Source: Deltaproteobacteria bacterium
GTDB taxonomy: Bacteria; Myxococcota_A; Polyangia; Polyangiales; Polyangiaceae
Direction: 5' to 3'
Length of the DNA stretch: 37,897 nt
NCBI GenBank assembly: GCA_016209145.1
Contig: JACQWT010000158.1
Coordinates: 1-37,897, forward strand
Made by a program: the position numbers and the translations under genes
Notes under the pieces: model-generated
What the model saw: the letters and a program-made list of their open reading frames with translations, nothing else
Database searches by the model: none
What the model was told of the DNA's origin: nothing
Shown: piece by piece, positions 1 to 29,987 of the stretch
Position numbering within the stretch: the stretch's first letter is position 1
Layout: the number at the start of each line of letters is the position of its first letter

Positions 1-179
1 ATGCGTGATAACCAAGCAGACAGCCGGCGGCCGAGGCGCCGCGCCGGCCGAGCGCGCCCGCAGCGCCGGGCCCGAGCGTACTCCTGTACGTGAGGGCCCG
101 GCGCGAGGACGTAAGCCGGCCAGCGCGGATGGATCGGCCGTCGTCGTTGCCGTCGAGGAGTTCTTGGTTATCACGTATG
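1..179 (+). mobile_element. Palindromic repeat element, copy 1
   Basis: First of four copies of a dispersed imperfect palindrome. The core GCGTACTCCTGTACG is at 76-90, followed by a conserved stretch ending in GACGTAAG at 115. The ends are inverted repeats: ATGCGTGATAACC at 1-13 matches the reverse complement of 166-179 (CATACGTGATAACC) with one difference, so the left end is at or one base before the window edge. The block around the core is nearly identical to copy 2. The right end overlaps the last codons and the stop codon of the PilZ gene on the minus strand. The left-flank duplication cannot be seen because it lies outside the window. Confidence 0.8.
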
Positions 180-5220: not shown

Positions 5221-6069
5221 ATGAAACGACTCACCACCCCCACGGTGCTCTGCGCGCTCTCGGGCGCTGCGTTCCTGCTCGTCGGCTCCCCGGCCCGGGC
5301 CGGCATCGAGGCCTGCGGCAACATCGACGTCGACGCCAGCGCCAAGTGCGAGGTGAAGTTGACGGGCGGCTGCACCGTCATGTGCGAGCCGATCAGCTTC
5401 ACGGCCGCGTGCGACGCCAAATGCAGCGGCCAATGCAACGTCAGCCTCGACGTGGAATGCAAGGGAAGCTGCGAGGCCGAGTGCTCGGGCCAGTGCGAGG
5501 CAGATCCCGGCAAGTTCGACTGCGAGGCCAAGTGCGAGGGCCAGTGCGGCGGCGAGTGCAGCGGCAAGTGCTCGTCCAGCGACGACAAGAGCGCCTGCGA
5601 GGGCTCGTGCAAGGCGACCTGCTCGGGCGAGTGCGGCGCCTCCTGCGAGGTCGTGCCGCCCCAGGCCAAGTGCGAGGCCAAGTGCGAGGCCCAGTGCGAG
5701 GGGTACTGCAAGGCCGAGGCCAAGGTCGACTGCGATATCGACTGCCACGCCGGCTGCGTGGTCGACCTCAAGGGCGGCTGCGAGGCCGCGTGCGAAGAAC
5801 CGGAGGGCGCGCTGTTCTGCGACGGCCAGTACGTCGACGACGGCGGCAACCTGCAGGAGTGCATCGACTCGCTCAAGGCCCAGCTCAACATCGTGGTGAC
5901 GGGGCAGGCCAGTGCGGACTGCTCGGGCAGTGAGTGCACTGCCGAGGCCGAAGGCAGCGTGAGCTGCGCCACGGCGCCCCAGACAAGGGGCGGCGTCGCC
6001 TGGTTCGCGGCCCTGGTGGCGGCGATCGGCTTGACGGCGCTCGGCCGGCGGCGGCGGGGACGAAGCTAG
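5221..6069 (+). CDS. Secreted C-x3-C repeat protein with MYXO-CTERM-like tail
   Basis: A 282-residue secreted protein not assigned to a known function. It has a clear signal peptide with likely cleavage after SPARA (residue 27). About 35 cysteines follow, most in long runs of C-x3-C spacing, for example CEAKCEGQCGGECSGKC, with Glu, Lys, Gly and Gln between. A roughly 60-residue region with few cysteines comes next. The end is a hydrophobic helix (about 255-275) flanked by a Cys before it and RRRRGR after it, resembling the MYXO-CTERM sorting tail that anchors proteins to the myxobacterial cell surface. GAAGGAG about 8 bases before the ATG fixes the start; the frame continues upstream into UppP promoter sequence and is not coding there. 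The Cys spacing could give a disulphide rod or bind metal; the sequence does not decide. Confidence 0.75.
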   Translation: MKRLTTPTVLCALSGAAFLLVGSPARAGIEACGNIDVDASAKCEVKLTGGCTVMCEPISFTAACDAKCSGQCNVSLDVECKGSCEAECSGQCEADPGKFDCEAKCEGQCGGECSGKCSSSDDKSACEGSCKATCSGECGASCEVVPPQAKCEAKCEAQCEGYCKAEAKVDCDIDCHAGCVVDLKGGCEAACEEPEGALFCDGQYVDDGGNLQECIDSLKAQLNIVVTGQASADCSGSECTAEAEGSVSCATAPQTRGGVAWFAALVAAIGLTALGRRRRGRS

Positions 6070-6078
6070 CCTGGGAGG

Positions 6079-7287
6079 CTAGCCCTTGGCCCGCAGGACG
6101 AGCTTGCGCAGCACGGCGGCGGCCAGCTTGTCGAGCGCACCGTTGAGCTGCCCGCAGCTTGTCAGGGCCACGAAGCCGAGCTGGTGCTCGGGCAGGAACA
6201 TGACGACCGCGGCGTAGAAGCGCGTGGCGCCCACGTGCGAAACGGCGTGGCCGGCGGCGCGCAGCTCGGAGACCACCCAGCCCAGGCCGGTGCCCTGCCC
6301 GCTCGCGCGCGCGAAGCCGCCGAGCAGGTGCGACTCGCGCACCGAGGCGTTGCGCAGCGGCTCCCTATCGGGCCGGGCGTCCGGGGGCCAGGCCGTCAAG
6401 TGGAAGGCCGCGTAGCGGATCATGTCGTCCAGGCTGGCGTAGAGGCCGCCCAGGGCCTCGGCCGCGCCCATCCTCCAGTGCGGGCCCGTCACGTACTTCT
6501 CGCCCTCGAGGGCGTAGCCCGTGGCGAGCCTTCCCGGCGGGACCTGCTCGGCCTCCCAAGCCGTGCCGCTCATCCCCAGAGGCGCCAGGATCTCTTCGCT
6601 CACGTAGCGTCGGTAGGGGACGCCGCTGGCCCGGCCCACCACGAGCCCGAGCAGGCCGAACCCGAGATTCGAGTAGACGTGGTCGGTGCCCGGCACGTGC
6701 TCCAGTCGCAGCCCCTTCAGGCCCGCCACGAGATCGGCCTCGCTCACCGGCTCGGGCCGGGACGCGTAGCTGAGCCTTCCGAGCCGCGGCAGGCCGGAGC
6801 TGTGCGTGAGCAGATGGCGCGAAGTGACAAGCGGGCTGTCGAGGGTCGGGTAGAGCACTTCGCCCAACTCGGGCAGCCAGGCCACGGCCGGGCTGTCGAG
6901 CGCGAGCAGCCCCTCGTCGCGCAGGCGCAGCATCGCCATGGCGGTCACGGTCTTGGTGACCGAACCGATGCGAAAGACCGTGTGCGCCGAAAGCTCTCCG
7001 CCCGCAGACAGGTCGCGCACGCCGAAGACGCGCGACCAGAGGAGCTCGCCCCCATCCAGCACCGCCGCCGCGAGCGCCGGCATGCGCTCGGCGCCGAAGC
7101 GCTCGTAGACCATGGCCTCGATCTCGGGGCGCGCGTCCAGGATGCGCTGGCGGCGTGCCTGCCGGCCGGGATCGGCCGCGGCAGGGCGCAGGCCGTAACG
7201 CTGGGGATACTCCGGCGCCGGGACGCGCTCGGCGCAGCCCGTAAGCAACAGCACCGCGGTGAGCGCCAGAGCGCGCGTCGCCCTCAT
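6079..7287 (-). CDS. Serine beta-lactamase-fold hydrolase, lipoprotein
   Basis: A 402-residue member of the serine hydrolase family that includes class C beta-lactamases, DD-peptidases and esterases. The signal ends in a lipobox (LLTGC), so the enzyme should be lipid-anchored outside the cytoplasm. The nucleophile motif S-x-x-K is SVTK, near residue 90 in GSVTKTVTAMAML. The second motif is Y-S-N in HVYSNLGFGLLG, and the third is H-V-G late in the protein. LLTHSSGLP between the first two is also typical. The substrate cannot be predicted; many members are esterases or peptidases rather than drug-resistance enzymes. The ATG at 7287 lies inside a 12-bp direct repeat that borders repeat copy 2, so its own upstream region has been replaced by the element and no ribosome site is visible. 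The propeller lipoprotein gene upstream ends 25 bp before the other copy of this start codon. Confidence 0.85.
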   Translation of the reverse strand: MRATRALALTAVLLLTGCAERVPAPEYPQRYGLRPAAADPGRQARRQRILDARPEIEAMVYERFGAERMPALAAAVLDGGELLWSRVFGVRDLSAGGELSAHTVFRIGSVTKTVTAMAMLRLRDEGLLALDSPAVAWLPELGEVLYPTLDSPLVTSRHLLTHSSGLPRLGRLSYASRPEPVSEADLVAGLKGLRLEHVPGTDHVYSNLGFGLLGLVVGRASGVPYRRYVSEEILAPLGMSGTAWEAEQVPPGRLATGYALEGEKYVTGPHWRMGAAEALGGLYASLDDMIRYAAFHLTAWPPDARPDREPLRNASVRESHLLGGFARASGQGTGLGWVVSELRAAGHAVSHVGATRFYAAVVMFLPEHQLGFVALTSCGQLNGALDKLAAAVLRKLVLRAKG

Positions 7288-7538
7288 GGCCGGCACGGGT
7301 GTTGACCAGCCAATCGCCCGGCGGCCGAGGCGCCGCGCCGGCCGAGCGCGCCCGCAGCGCCGGGCCCGAGCGTACTCCTGTACGTGAGGACCCGGCGCGA
7401 GGACGTAAGTCCGTCCCTTCGGGACGGGGTTGGGGTCCCGACGCGCCCTTCGGGCGCGTCACCCCTGCCCCGGCCTGCGCGGATGGATCGGCCGCCGTCG
7501 TTGCCATCGCCAGGTTCTTGGCTAGCGCGCATGCTCAT
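7284..7538 (-). CDS. Element-spanning ORF from the duplicated start codon
   Basis: An 84-codon frame running through repeat copy 2. Its ATG (7536-7538) is in the right-hand copy of the 12-bp direct repeat and should be the original start codon of the beta-lactamase-fold gene, now cut off from it. Its TGA (7284-7286) overlaps the present ATG of that gene as ATGA. If translated, it could let ribosomes re-initiate on the displaced gene. The peptide is Arg/Gly/Pro-rich with no recognisable domain and is probably not functional in itself. This is an inference from the arrangement. Confidence 0.2.
   Translation of the reverse strand: MSMRASQEPGDGNDGGRSIRAGRGRGDAPEGRVGTPTPSRRDGLTSSRRVLTYRSTLGPGAAGALGRRGASAAGRLAGQHPCRP
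7295..7533 (+). mobile_element. Palindromic repeat element, copy 2
   Basis: Same family and orientation as copy 1, with the 15-base core at 7370-7384. It is bordered by a perfect 12-bp direct repeat, CTCATGGCCGGC, at 7283-7294 and 7534-7545, read here as a target-site duplication. Its ends pair less well than those of the other copies (AGCCAA on the left against TTGGCT on the right). It is 60 bp longer than the others because of a hairpin-rich insert at 7410-7469. It lies between two genes of the same strand that were probably 25 bp apart before the insertion. Confidence 0.8.
7410..7469. repeat. Double-hairpin insert within repeat copy 2
   Basis: Sixty bases absent from copy 1 at the same point, just after GACGTAAG. 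It holds two perfect hairpins with TTC loops: CCGTCCC (7411-7417) with GGGACGG (7421-7427), and GACGCGCCC (7440-7448) with GGGCGCGTC (7452-7460). Outer G-rich and C-rich arms (GGGGTTGGGGT, ACCCCTGCCCC) can also pair with two mismatches. It may be a second small REP-like unit nested in the first. Confidence 0.65.
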
Positions 7539-7563
7539 GGCCGGCGTCCGTCCGCGCTCCCAC

Positions 7564-9219
7564 TCATGGGCTGAGCTTGAGCAGGAACATGTCGGGGTCG
7601 GAGGCGTTGAGCACGCCGGCGCCGAAGTTGACGTTGCCGGTCATGACACCTGTCGCGAGCACGTTGCCGCTCTGGTCGCCGGCCACAGCCAGCGCCTTCT
7701 GGGGCAGCTTGTCGCCATAGCGGCGGCCCCACAACGGCACTCCGGCCGGCGTGAGCTTGGCCACGAAGATGTCGCCGCCGCCGGCACCGACCAGCGTGCT
7801 CGGGCCGACCTTGACGACCCCGTTGATGGCTCCGGCCAAGAGCACGTTGCCGGCGCCGTCGAGCCCGACGTCGCTCGCGCTCTGGGCGGCGGGATCGCCG
7901 AAGCTGCGGCTCCAGACGGCCGCGCCGTCCTTGTCGAACTCGACCACGAAGGCGTCGTCCCCGCCCGCACTGGTCAGGCTCTGGCCGCCGCCAAAGACCA
8001 TCGTACCCTGGAACGTGCCGGCCATGAGCAGATTGCCCTTGGGGGTGAAGGCGATGGCCGCGGGGGACTGGTCGAGATCGTCGCCCCAGAAGAGGGTGAG
8101 CATGGGCAAGCCGAACCCGTCGAGCCGGAGCAGGAAGACGTCGCTGCCGCCCATGCTGAAGGCCGGTCCCAACCCGAAGTCGGCGCTGCCGCGCAGCTCG
8201 CCGACGACGATCGCCTCGGTCAAGCCACTGGGGAGCAACGCGGTGGCCCGCTGCCCGTCGGCGTCACCGAAGCGCCTGGCCCAGAGGGGAAAGCCCCCCG
8301 GATCGAGCCGAACGACGAAGATGTCCTCGGCCCCGGCGCTCGTGAGCAGCTCGAGCGGGGCGAAGTCGAGCGTGCCGCGAAATGCGCCGGCCAACAGCAC
8401 GCTGCCCGTGCCGTCCACGCCCAGTCCGGTGAGCTCGGCGTCGTCCTCGCCGCCGTAGCTCCTGCTCCAGAGGTGCTTGCCCGACTTGTCGAACTTGGCC
8501 ACGAACAGATCCCGGCCCCCCGTGCTCGTCAGATCGTCGCCGCCCAGGTTGATGGTGCCGTCGAAATCTCCGGCCACGAGCATGCTGCCCGCGGCATCGA
8601 CGGTCACGCGCCGGGCGTGCTGGGCGCCGGGGCCACCGAAGCTCTTGCTCCAGTCCTCGCTCGCGTCCGCCTTCACCTTGGCGAGGAAGCCGTCGAAGCT
8701 GCCGGCGCTCTTGTGTACCTGTCCCCCGAAGTAGATATCGGTTCCCGCAGCCTGGGGCGAGCATGTTCCCTCGCTGCCGGCCTGCGCGCACGATCCGCAG
8801 GGCCCTTCGCATGCGCTCGTGCAGCAGACGCCGTCGGCGCAATACCCGCTCTCGCAGGCGGTGGCCTTGGTGCAGCTCCCGCCGGCGGGGATCTTGGCGC
8901 AGTGACCCTCGCCGTCGCACACGCCCCCGCCATCTTCCGGACAGGGCGTGCCCTTGGGCGCGGCCTGGACGGCGCAAGCGCCGCCCGTGCAGGTGCGCTT
9001 GCCGCAAGTCTCGTCCTTGCCCGGACAGGCCTCCGGGTCGCAGCCCCCGCCCGCGGCCGCCGCGCCGGCGACGGCGCCGGAGCCGCCGCCCGCGCCCCCC
9101 GCGCCGCCCGCGGCGGCGGCACCGCTGCTGGTGTTGCCGCCGTCGGGGCCGGTTTCCGCGCCGCAGCCTGCCGCGGCCAGCGCGGCCCAAGCCCAGATGG
9201 CGAGGTCAGCTCTCATCAC
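7564..9219 (-). CDS. Beta-propeller repeat lipoprotein with Cys-rich N-domain
   Basis: A 551-residue predicted surface lipoprotein of unknown function. The signal ends in the lipobox AAAGC, followed by a Gly/Ala linker to about residue 58. A Cys-rich segment (about 60-155, some 20 cysteines) has the C-x4-C-C-x2-x-C pattern seen in many Polyangia secreted proteins. The remaining 390 residues are repeats of about 50 residues of the form D-G-x-G-N-V-L-L-A-G-x-F-x-G-x-x-x-F-G then D-x-F-V-x-K-x-x-x-x-G-x-x-x-W-x-R-x-F-G, matching the SBBP beta-propeller family; about seven can be counted. Such propellers usually bind proteins or glycans. It could start at either of two adjacent Met codons. Its stop is 25 bp from the original start of the beta-lactamase-fold gene, so the two probably formed an operon before repeat copy 2 inserted. 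Confidence 0.8.
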   Translation of the reverse strand: MMRADLAIWAWAALAAAGCGAETGPDGGNTSSGAAAAGGAGGAGGGSGAVAGAAAAGGGCDPEACPGKDETCGKRTCTGGACAVQAAPKGTPCPEDGGGVCDGEGHCAKIPAGGSCTKATACESGYCADGVCCTSACEGPCGSCAQAGSEGTCSPQAAGTDIYFGGQVHKSAGSFDGFLAKVKADASEDWSKSFGGPGAQHARRVTVDAAGSMLVAGDFDGTINLGGDDLTSTGGRDLFVAKFDKSGKHLWSRSYGGEDDAELTGLGVDGTGSVLLAGAFRGTLDFAPLELLTSAGAEDIFVVRLDPGGFPLWARRFGDADGQRATALLPSGLTEAIVVGELRGSADFGLGPAFSMGGSDVFLLRLDGFGLPMLTLFWGDDLDQSPAAIAFTPKGNLLMAGTFQGTMVFGGGQSLTSAGGDDAFVVEFDKDGAAVWSRSFGDPAAQSASDVGLDGAGNVLLAGAINGVVKVGPSTLVGAGGGDIFVAKLTPAGVPLWGRRYGDKLPQKALAVAGDQSGNVLATGVMTGNVNFGAGVLNASDPDMFLLKLSP

Positions 9220-9234: not shown

Positions 9235-9575
9235 ATGCGGCGCTGCCCCCCAAGCAATCTGGGCTACCCGGACAAGCAGCTCGTCTGCACCGAGGCCGGC
9301 GTCTGCCAGAGCGGCTGCTACCTCGACGCGCATTGCCCGTAACCGTTCACGCATTCCAACACCCGGCTCGTCAGGCGGTCGCGAGCGCGAGCGCGCCCGG
9401 AGGCCCGGGCCGCAGCGTACTCCTGTACGCGAGGACCCGGGCCGAGGACGTAAGCCGCGATCGCGGCCGCCTCGGCGAGCCGTCGTTGCTAGCGCCGCAA
9501 TGCGTGAACGCATACCATTGCCCGCAGGGCATGCACTGCACGTCTCCGGGCGCAGCGCTGGGAAGCTGCGCGTAG
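9235..9575 (+). pseudogene. Small Cys-rich gene split by repeat copy 3
   Basis: The left part, 9235-9339, reads a Cys-rich peptide ending ...CYLDAHCP before a TAA at 9340. The right part, 9525-9572 plus TAG, reads QGMHCTSPGAALGSCA in another frame. Deleting 9340-9524 (the 176-bp element plus one 9-bp CATTGCCCG) joins them in frame as CYLDAHCPQGMHCTSPG. The restored peptide has about 50 residues and 8 cysteines and resembles the C-terminal end of Cys-rich secreted Polyangia proteins. It has no signal peptide, and an in-frame TAG lies just upstream (9229-9231), so the N-terminal part was already missing, perhaps lost where the neighbouring divergent gene now begins. Confidence 0.75.
9340..9515 (+). 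mobile_element. Palindromic repeat element, copy 3
   Basis: A 176-bp copy with the core at 9415-9429. Perfect 9-bp direct repeats CATTGCCCG lie at 9331-9339 and 9516-9524. The inverted ends are TAACCGTTCACGCATT on the left and the reverse complement of GCAATGCGTGAACGCATAC on the right; 11 bases (GTTCACGCATT) match exactly. Its interior is closer to copy 4 than to copies 1 and 2. It interrupts the Cys-rich gene described separately, which gives independent proof of the borders. Confidence 0.9.
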
Positions 9576-9615: not shown

Positions 9616-9876
9616 TCAGCCGCGCCGGTAGATCTCGCGCCGGTGGCCGATGCGGAGCACCACAACGTCGGATCGCTCGAGGTCGAAGATCACGCGCCAG
9701 TCCCCGACCCGGACGCGGTACTGGCCGAGATCGGTCGACGACAGCCTCCTGGCGTGGCGCAGCGGATCTTCGGTGAGCTCCAGGAGGGCTCGGTGGATCC
9801 TGGTCCGCACCTCGTTGTCGAGCCGGGCGATGTCTCGCTCGGCTCGCCGCGTGATGACCACGTCAAACCGGCTCAT
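9616..9876 (-). CDS. RelE/ParE-family toxin
   Basis: An 86-residue protein of the RelE/ParE superfamily. Visible features are the N-terminal strand and helix (FDVVITRRAERDIARL), the central R-R-L-x-x-T-D-L-G-Q-Y-R-V-R-V-G-D-W-R-V-I-F-D hairpin, and the C-terminal I-G-H-R-R-E-I-Y. The basic G-H-R-R-x-x-Y end fits RelE-type ribosome-dependent mRNA interferases better than ParE gyrase inhibitors, but the two cannot be split with certainty here. Its ATG overlaps the antitoxin stop as ATGA, so the pair is translationally coupled with the antitoxin first, the usual order. Only about 40 bp separate its stop from the broken Cys-rich gene region. Confidence 0.88.
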   Translation of the reverse strand: MSRFDVVITRRAERDIARLDNEVRTRIHRALLELTEDPLRHARRLSSTDLGQYRVRVGDWRVIFDLERSDVVVLRIGHRREIYRRG

Positions 9877-23738: not shown

Positions 23739-23741
23739 GGG

Positions 23742-23920
23742 TAGCCGTTCACGGCATTCCGGTGCCAGCAACGACGGCTCGCCGAGTCGGCCGCGATCGC
23801 GGCTTACGTCCTCGGCCCGACTCCTCGCGTACAGGAGTACGCTCCGGGCCGGGCCTCCGGGCGCGCTCGCGCTCGCGACCGCCTGACGAGCCGGGTGGGG
23901 GGAAGGCGCGAGCGGGTACC
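23742..23920 (-). mobile_element. Palindromic repeat element, copy 4
   Basis: A 179-bp copy in the reverse orientation, with the core CGTACAGGAGTACGC at 23829-23843. Direct repeats CACTAGGGG (23733-23741) and CAGTAGGGG (23921-23929) differ at one base. The left end TAGCCGTTCACGGCATTCC is nearly the same as that of copy 3 although the cores point in opposite directions; the right end pairs with it less perfectly. The interior is close to copy 3. The rest of the 242-bp gap (23930-23980) shows nothing else. Confidence 0.82.
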
Positions 23921-29042: not shown

Positions 29043-29987
29043 ATGGCTGAGATCGCGACCCTCGTGGCGAGCTACCCGCTGGTCGTGCTGAGCGTGCCGT
29101 TCGCGCTGGTGCTGCTCTACTGGCTGTTCGTGGTGCTGGGCGCGCTCGACATCGATCTGTTCCACAGCGCGGACGCGGCAGCCGCAGGGGCCAAGGGAGC
29201 GCTCGAAGGCGCCGCCAAGGGAGTGCTCGAGGGCGCGGGCAAGGGCGTTTTCGAGGGCGCGGCCAAAGGCGTGCTCGAGGGCGCGGGCAAGGGCGTGTTC
29301 GAAGGCGCCGCCAAAGGCGTGATGGAGGGCGCGGGCAAGGCGGTGCTCGAAGGGGCGGGCAAGGGCGTGCTCGAGGGTGCCGCCAAGGGCGCCCTGGCAA
29401 CCAGCGGAGAGGCGGCCGTCGCGGCCGGAGCGAGCGGGTCAGGGGAGGCGGCGATCGGGGCTCTGGCCGCGCTCCGGGCGGTGCCGGCCACGGTTTCGCT
29501 CAGCGTGTGGGTCGCACTGTCCTGGCTGGTGTGCGCCGTCGGGGCGCGGCTGCTCGCACCGCTGGCGCGCGGCGGCCCGGCGTGGTGGCTGCTCGGTGCC
29601 GGGATCCTCGTAGGCTCGCTCCTTGTGGCGGCGGCGCCCACGACCTGGGTGATCCGGCCCCTGGCCCGGCTCTTCCTCACGCGGCAGGGCAAGCGGCACC
29701 GCGATCTGGTCGGCCAAACGTGCGTGGTGAGCACCGGCTCGGTCAGCGACCGCTTCGGCCAGGCGACGCTGGAGGACGGCAGCCTGAGCCTGCTCTTGCA
29801 GGTGCGCCACGAGGCCCACAGCCCGCTGCGCAAGGGCGATCGCGCGCTCATCGTGACTTGGGATCCCGAGCGCCAGGCGTTCACGGTCGAGCCGCTCGAA
29901 GCGCTGCTCGGGCGCGCGGCCGAAGCCAGCGAGGCAGAGGACGAGGAGGATGAGGCCGGGGACGGGGAGAAGCGGGTGCGGAGGTAG
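29043..29987 (+). CDS. YqiJ-like OB-fold membrane protein with octapeptide repeats
   Basis: A 314-residue inner-membrane protein. The first helix (about 12-33) ends in LLYWLFVVLGALDIDLF, a close match to the start of the YqiJ/DUF1449 family, whose members usually partner flotillins. A second pair of membrane helices (about 150-200) and an OB-like domain (about 220-285: R-H-R-D-L-V-G-Q-T-C-V-V, then G-D-R-A-L-I-V) follow, then a highly acidic tail. Between the first helix and the second pair lies an insert: nine near-perfect octapeptides, A-(A/G)-K-G-V-(L/F)-E-G, at residues 49-120, which would form an amphipathic helix or coil. No flotillin gene is adjacent. Gene order and the 11-bp gap tie it to the FadL-type gene. 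The start follows GGGGAGG. Confidence 0.75.
   Translation: MAEIATLVASYPLVVLSVPFALVLLYWLFVVLGALDIDLFHSADAAAAGAKGALEGAAKGVLEGAGKGVFEGAAKGVLEGAGKGVFEGAAKGVMEGAGKAVLEGAGKGVLEGAAKGALATSGEAAVAAGASGSGEAAIGALAALRAVPATVSLSVWVALSWLVCAVGARLLAPLARGGPAWWLLGAGILVGSLLVAAAPTTWVIRPLARLFLTRQGKRHRDLVGQTCVVSTGSVSDRFGQATLEDGSLSLLLQVRHEAHSPLRKGDRALIVTWDPERQAFTVEPLEALLGRAAEASEAEDEEDEAGDGEKRVRR
29187..29402 (+). repeat. Nine tandem 24-bp coding repeats
   Basis: Within the OB-fold gene, nine units of 24 bp encode octapeptides such as AAKGVLEG, AGKGVFEG and AAKGVMEG. The pattern alternates A-A-K and A-G-K for units 2-6, which suggests that the array grew by duplication of a 48-bp double unit. Synonymous differences between units show it is not a very recent expansion. 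Confidence 0.9.

Follow-up and report, generated by a model that had tools for sequence, protein, structure and literature searches.

A 12-bp direct repeat, CTCATGGCCGGC, occurs at positions 7283-7294 and 7534-7545 of the window (the whole 37,897-nucleotide stretch of DNA analyzed here, from a draft genome of 596 contigs and 7.9 Mb) and includes the start codon of a hydrolase gene on the minus strand. The preliminary description took the repeat for the scar of a mobile element that had copied the start codon and proposed that the gene is rescued by translational coupling through that element. The locus raises two questions: what was inserted in front of the hydrolase gene, and how the gene would now be translated.

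Insertion scar at the start codon of a hydrolase gene

The hydrolase gene (6079..7287, minus strand) is intact and encodes a predicted lipoprotein of 402 aa, a serine hydrolase of beta-lactamase fold (PF00144, E 6e-68), the N terminus of which, MRATRALALTAVLLLTGC, reads as a lipoprotein signal. Both copies of the 12-bp repeat with the hydrolase start codon were indeed present. Sibling copies of the element with the same ends are flanked by 11-bp duplications and begin with C, and the repeat therefore resolves into an 11-bp target-site duplication, CTCATGGCCGG, and one coincident C, such that the element spans 7294-7533 and base 12 of the direct repeat (7294/7545) is a chance match. The duplication copy on the hydrolase side (7283..7293, no strand assigned) holds the displaced ATG (7287-7285, minus strand) and is identical at 11/11 bases to the copy on the side of the upstream gene (7534..7544, likewise unstranded), which holds the upstream ATG of the minus strand (7538-7536). 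Agreement of all 11 bases directly outside the element ends is far beyond chance. The claim that a mobile repeat inserted and duplicated the start codon was borne out by the siblings, which share the end type and the 11-bp duplications, and by a transposase gene flanked by such ends at another site in the genome. Moreover, at least one further start-codon duplication was seen, at locus L012, where an 11-bp duplication, ACCTTCATCGC, by reading includes the first codon of a gene. By itself the start-codon scar is ordinary, as the insertion of MITEs with duplication of their targets is familiar. No near relative with an empty site was found among 59 relatives searched, none of which was of the same genus, and the best hydrolase homologues were less than 50% identical.

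The upstream gene (7564..9219, minus strand, 551 aa) is SBBP-repeat lipoprotein-like (NF047494, E 2e-28, below the cut-off of that family); gene calls around insertions were made with a simple codon-usage script. Its stop codon (7566-7564) lies 25 bases from the upstream ATG, the spacing that had been given for the two genes before insertion. An 84-codon frame of the minus strand (7284..7538, by ORF reading) opens at the upstream ATG and closes at TGA 7286-7284, which overlaps the hydrolase ATG to form ATGA at 7287-7284, also as first described. ATGA overlaps couple genes in bacteria, and ribosomes from the upstream operon might translate the 84-codon frame, reinitiate at the ATGA, and so rescue the hydrolase. 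We consider such coupling quite unlikely, even though both the overlap and the open frame are real. Open frames are common in the element, as 33/66 antisense frames in 22 delimited copies were without a stop, and the hydrolase gene begins with ATGAGG, so that an upstream frame without stops, if in one particular phase of the three, necessarily ends in ATGA; the joint chance of the overlap is about 1 in 6. By reading, no well-placed or strong Shine-Dalgarno sequence was seen at either start, folding indicated that the element is strongly structured on the coupling strand, and a GTG in frame with the hydrolase (7296), as well as the hydrolase's own ATG, provides an alternative start. Moreover, an SBBP gene was near hydrolase homologues in 0/19 loci of relatives, so that an ancestral gene pair, the "original operon" of the preliminary description, is not supported.

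No promoter-like or terminator-like site was found within the element, and the 84-residue frame matched no protein family. A coding role for the frame was rejected on the latter ground and on the commonness of open frames. We conclude that the overlap is set by the first four bases of the gene, that the ATGA bridge requires no function and the 84-codon frame is probably a by-product, and that the proposed rescue by coupling is not supported. The start now used by the hydrolase would most likely be either its own displaced ATG or the in-frame GTG.

Element copies, ends, and candidate transposase partners

The inserted element (locus L001) is a dispersed repeat of type A, 240 bp in length (7294..7533, plus strand, with its core on the plus strand), the boundaries of which are derived from its siblings. 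The left end, CACGGGTGTTGACC (7294..7307, plus strand), and the right end read inward, CATGCGCGCTAGCC (7520..7533, minus strand), each have 4 mismatches to the type-A consensus, CATNGGCGTTAAGC, a degeneracy that counts against our explanation of the element as a transposon with ends like those of an insertion sequence (IS). The terminal inverted repeats match at 8/14 positions in this copy and at up to 13/14 in siblings. An extra 60-bp segment with two short C-G hairpins (7410..7469, plus strand) is missing from the window's other three copies. It appears as an alignment gap against copy 1, a type-A copy (1..179, plus strand) that is cut at its left end by the contig start and that aligns to 7299-7409 and 7470-7534, skipping the segment. 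In the wider family the C-G-rich segment, located 3′ of the core, is found in some copies only and is partly duplicated in L006, L009, and L012. The remaining two copies are of type B: one of 177 bp (9339..9515, plus strand) with the 8-bp duplication CATTGCCC, and one of 179 bp (23741..23919, minus strand) with a duplication that agrees at 7/8 positions (CCCTACTG/CCCTAGTG). The window also holds a ParE-like toxin gene (9616-9876, minus strand, PF05016, E 3e-13) near the 177-bp copy, a 24-bp tandem repeat of at least 8 units in an apparent coding frame (29165-29428, AKGVLEGA-like), and cysteine-rich repeats spaced by 12 bp in a predicted secreted protein (5402-5721, CEAKCEGQC-like).

The core motif GCGTACN(0-8)GTACGNGAGG occurs in 241 copies in the 7.9-Mb genome, 4 of them in the window, and a reversed control gave 0; copy counts from some searches are lower bounds, to be read as "at least." The roughly 240 core copies lie within two MITE types that differ in ends and in duplications. 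Type-A copies end in sequences close to CATAGGCGTTAAGC and are flanked by 11-bp duplications (L001, L006, L008, L012, L220, and L237, with L003 agreeing at 10/11). In type B the ends are close to GTATGCGTTCACGC and the duplications are of 8 bp, with about 25 copies showing perfect agreement; the type-B boundaries were found with an end-template search. The interior next to the core is also common to both types.

At 240 bp, below 500 bp, and with inverted ends, a flanking duplication, and no transposase gene, the window copy has the features of a MITE, and an autonomous partner with identical consensus ends was found in the same genome. That partner, L216 on contig C299, is a 1413-bp IS with CATAGGCGTTAAGC at both ends (0 mismatches) and a transposase ORF of 376 aa. 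Judged by its matches to NF033592 (E 3e-30, 105 bits, below the cut-off of 115) and PF01609 (E 1.9e-10, over the cut-off), the transposase appears to be of the DDE type and close to the IS4 family. The matching ends together with the DDE transposase make L216 the likely source of type-A movement, and L216 thus probably mobilizes type-A MITEs in trans. The flanking duplication of L216 itself is obscured by the contig edge, and past the ends the MITE interior has no meaningful similarity to the IS. A candidate partner for type B would be an IS66 transposase between GTA..CGTTCACG ends, of which no more than an IS66 fragment at a contig end was found; an 8-bp target duplication fits IS66. No element-related DNA was found in phages or plasmids. 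We conclude that type-A MITEs share their ends with an IS4-like IS of the same genome.

Conservation of a hairpin core across phyla

The core of the window copy (7354..7402, plus strand) scored 50.1 bits (E 9.8e-11) with model R3 and consists of a variable helix, CC, a GA/GA loop, GCGUAC-UCCU-GUACGU, GG, and A. Many copies folded alike, with a GCGUAC/GUACGY stem closed by a tandem G-A loop (GA/GA or GNA/GA), and the consensus fold was N-CC-GNA-GCGUAC-loop-GUACGY-GA-GG-A with tandem G-A internal loops. Outward of the G-A loop, the folds continue with CC/GG, a mismatch or bulge that has an A on the 3′ side, and finally the variable helix. The G-A pairs, which may have sheared geometry, are favorable on one strand only, as the other strand carries T and C in their place, which argues for folding of that one strand as RNA or single-stranded DNA. 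From this polarity we infer that the core is most likely a strand-specific hairpin of RNA or single-stranded DNA. Apart from tRNA, no Rfam family reached the gathering threshold in the window copy or in 13 loci. In several genomes (L149, L150, L260, L303, and L334), cores follow one another in close tandem at distances of about 85 to 220 bp.

The stem has changed with its pairing intact in GUGCAC/GUGCAU (L033), GGUAC/GUACC (L032), and GCGCAC/GUGCGU (L274). Stem letters are partly fixed by the search pattern; at pattern-free positions of 46 non-redundant hits, +6 was A in 40/46, and in the same hits the pairs -8/+8 and -10/+10 exceeded shuffled partners (z 5.7 and 4.5, respectively). Across 86 distinct sequences the covariation score was 0.306, compared to 0.096 (sd 0.008) for shuffled and at most 0.053 for slid alignments, a score that leans towards structure because the alignment was fitted to it; the A4 and A5 alignments were fitted to the model. 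A separate comparison is provided by L262 and L274 (1411-1600), from two genomes of one genus, in which a single homologous hairpin with the core lies just past the 3′ end of a tRNA. Of its 63 pairs, 53 were unchanged, 4 were changed on one side, 6 were changed on both sides, and 0 were broken, such that all 10/10 changed pairs still pair. The two loci have no similarity outside the tRNA and the hairpin, and the hairpin is possibly a site-specific insertion at the tRNA. Covariation could come in part from template-switch correction of quasi-palindromes, but such correction would also erase the G-A mismatches, and yet the mismatches persist.

Models R1 to R3 were built from the Myxococcota copies. 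R1, based on one loop type, did not recover lineages whose third helix is longer, which R2 and R3 include. R2 matched 50/379 Myxococcota genomes, from about 20 families, and gave no match in the other 329; in other families, orders, and classes of the phylum the motif was frequent and lay in elements with differing outer palindromes. A scan of contigs from 84,980 species with the pattern CCGNAGCGTACN(2-8)GTACGYGAGG returned at least 110 stretches, against an estimated chance expectation of about 6.5 over the collection if base composition is uniform. Among the matches listed, record titles placed the core in about ten phyla besides Myxococcota, with stretches from Bacillota, Fibrobacterota, Pseudomonadota, desulfobacterial lineages, Planctomycetota, Nitrospirota, Bacteroidota, Chlorobiota, Verrucomicrobiota, Actinomycetota, and Rokubacteria. 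R3 matches were present in 18/18 further genomes, which had been picked for already holding a pattern match, at 1 to 130 per genome; one of these genomes, of 1.3 Mb and the source of the Rickettsia rhipicephali locus, has 48. Core-bearing genomes range from low to high GC, and a single weak match (E 0.67) was returned when R3 was run on about 93 kb of unrelated loci. We conclude that conserved sequence and pairing extend across phyla.

Origin of the core and comparison with known repeats

Taken as a whole, the explanation we hold with considerable confidence is that a non-autonomous 240-bp transposon with ends resembling those of an IS4-like IS inserted at the hydrolase start codon, that the 11-bp target duplication copied the ATG, and that the element carries a strand-specific hairpin core, found across bacteria, that would be recognized in single-stranded form. 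The ends would be interchangeable transposase handles, as the same interior lies under two end types in one genome, and the hairpin unit would on more than one occasion have gained ends compatible with a transposase, spreading in the form of MITEs. When single-stranded, as RNA or lagging-strand DNA, the core would probably be a recognition site, for a putative factor, that aids persistence or spread. Such recognition could serve mobility, tolerance of the element by the host, or host regulation. At 38 scored intergenic sites, the orientations of the core and the neighboring genes were ++ 14, -- 9, +- 9, and -+ 6. As no clear preference is seen, we favor a function in the element itself rather than a fixed one in mRNA. 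A UTR-type orientation bias towards genes was considered, and none was clear. The broader proposal, that one ancient mobile hairpin class is the common heart of repeats in about 12 phyla, swaps its ends, and has its core recognized when single-stranded, seems to us evenly poised between true and false; it would cover RPE1, the E. coli repeats, and the myxobacterial MITEs, and perhaps ERIC.

The core might instead be a by-product of palindrome spread, in which MITE interiors are copied between transposons with no function of, or selection on, the fold. Most copies do lie within mobile elements, those of one genome are nearly identical to each other, and the interior flanking the core is shared between types A and B, but the G-A mismatches and the core letters are kept across phyla despite differing flanks, and the single-copy hairpins next to tRNA retain every changed pair; we therefore rate this account as possible but rather doubtful. 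Held to be just as doubtful is the idea that the core is a regulatory RNA or mRNA-stability element useful to the host and spread by MITEs, as has been suggested of ERIC and NEMIS. In its favor, fixed sites retain single copies (E. coli pyrH-frr and the tRNA-adjacent sites), and Yersinia ERIC alters mRNA levels, according to a review of prokaryotic MITEs (PMC10969869), whereas the host genome shows no clear orientation preference, as described above, and Rickettsia copies lie within coding frames. Finally, likeness across phyla could reflect convergence or search bias, as palindromes were chosen by an exact pattern in which CCGNAG, CGTAC, GTACG, and YGAGG were fixed, and the scan of the collection had no control matched for composition. 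Such an origin is very improbable, as positions outside the pattern are conserved and covary, the models recover copies with other stems (L033, L032, and L274), and matches are nearly absent from the unrelated loci, absent from 329/379 Myxococcota genomes, and present in low-GC and high-GC genomes alike.

If a mobile hairpin class with a common core is real, its sequence and fold would merge RPE, enterobacterial intergenic repeats, and possibly ERIC into one testable question, namely, which factor recognizes the core hairpin, and the core model would help to annotate such repeats, for example, the copy between pyrH and frr in E. coli K-12. The 2024 review treats RPE and ERIC separately, with no common core mentioned in the portion consulted (PMC10969869). 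In open-access text, no literature was found that links these repeats via the core or that prints the core sequence in the sense of a repeat, the 20 matches listed, of 78, appearing to be primers or chance hits.

In Rickettsia, copies lie in frame within ilvE-like and Xaa-Pro peptidase genes, and the RPE1 domain TIGR01045 covers the core there (E 8.5e-19 and 5.9e-22). RPE1 is alike in core sequence and fold but differs in being rickettsial, in often lying in frame inside genes, and in having unrelated outer sequence; in the frames through the window element, the RPE1 peptide gave no NCBIfam match. In E. coli, a related repeat was found in 5375/5426 genomes at a median of five places, including a copy between pyrH and frr of K-12 MG1655 (L391 982-1031, 53.4 bits) that is an unannotated feature in the record. 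The pyrH-frr repeat has the same core but differs in its few copies, fixed sites, and unrelated flanks. The antisense strand of the E. coli copy (L386 1516-1566, minus strand) weakly matches the Xanthomonas small RNA sX9 in Rfam (21.9 bits, gathering threshold 44). Yersinia RU-2/YPAL was considered as an enterobacterial member and set aside, its printed sequence lacking the core.

ERIC (IRU, RU-1) is likewise a long hairpin of imperfect pairing, in which a GA/GA loop is placed around GCUUAC/GUAAGU, but it differs in its stem letters and ends and in its length of about 127 bp. The window element lacks the ERIC consensus and TA ends and has only the core layout in common with it, and ERIC gave the top R3 score in its own locus, 19.5 bits; the similarity is weak, and so kinship of ERIC with the core family is no more than suggested. 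REP and BIME palindromes are GTAG- or CGTC-tagged (PMC3733652). REPs and BIMEs are also dispersed, mostly intergenic hairpins, but REPs are 20 to 40 bp and tagged at one end, whereas the elements described here are about 177 to 310 bp with inverted ends and duplications. In this last respect the elements resemble MITEs of IS4/IS231-type transposases, which are short and geneless, have inverted ends in common with an IS of the same genome, and make 11-bp duplications. They differ from these MITEs in that the interior is no deletion-derived remnant of the partner IS and in that another end type, flanked by 8-bp duplications, carries the same interior as well.
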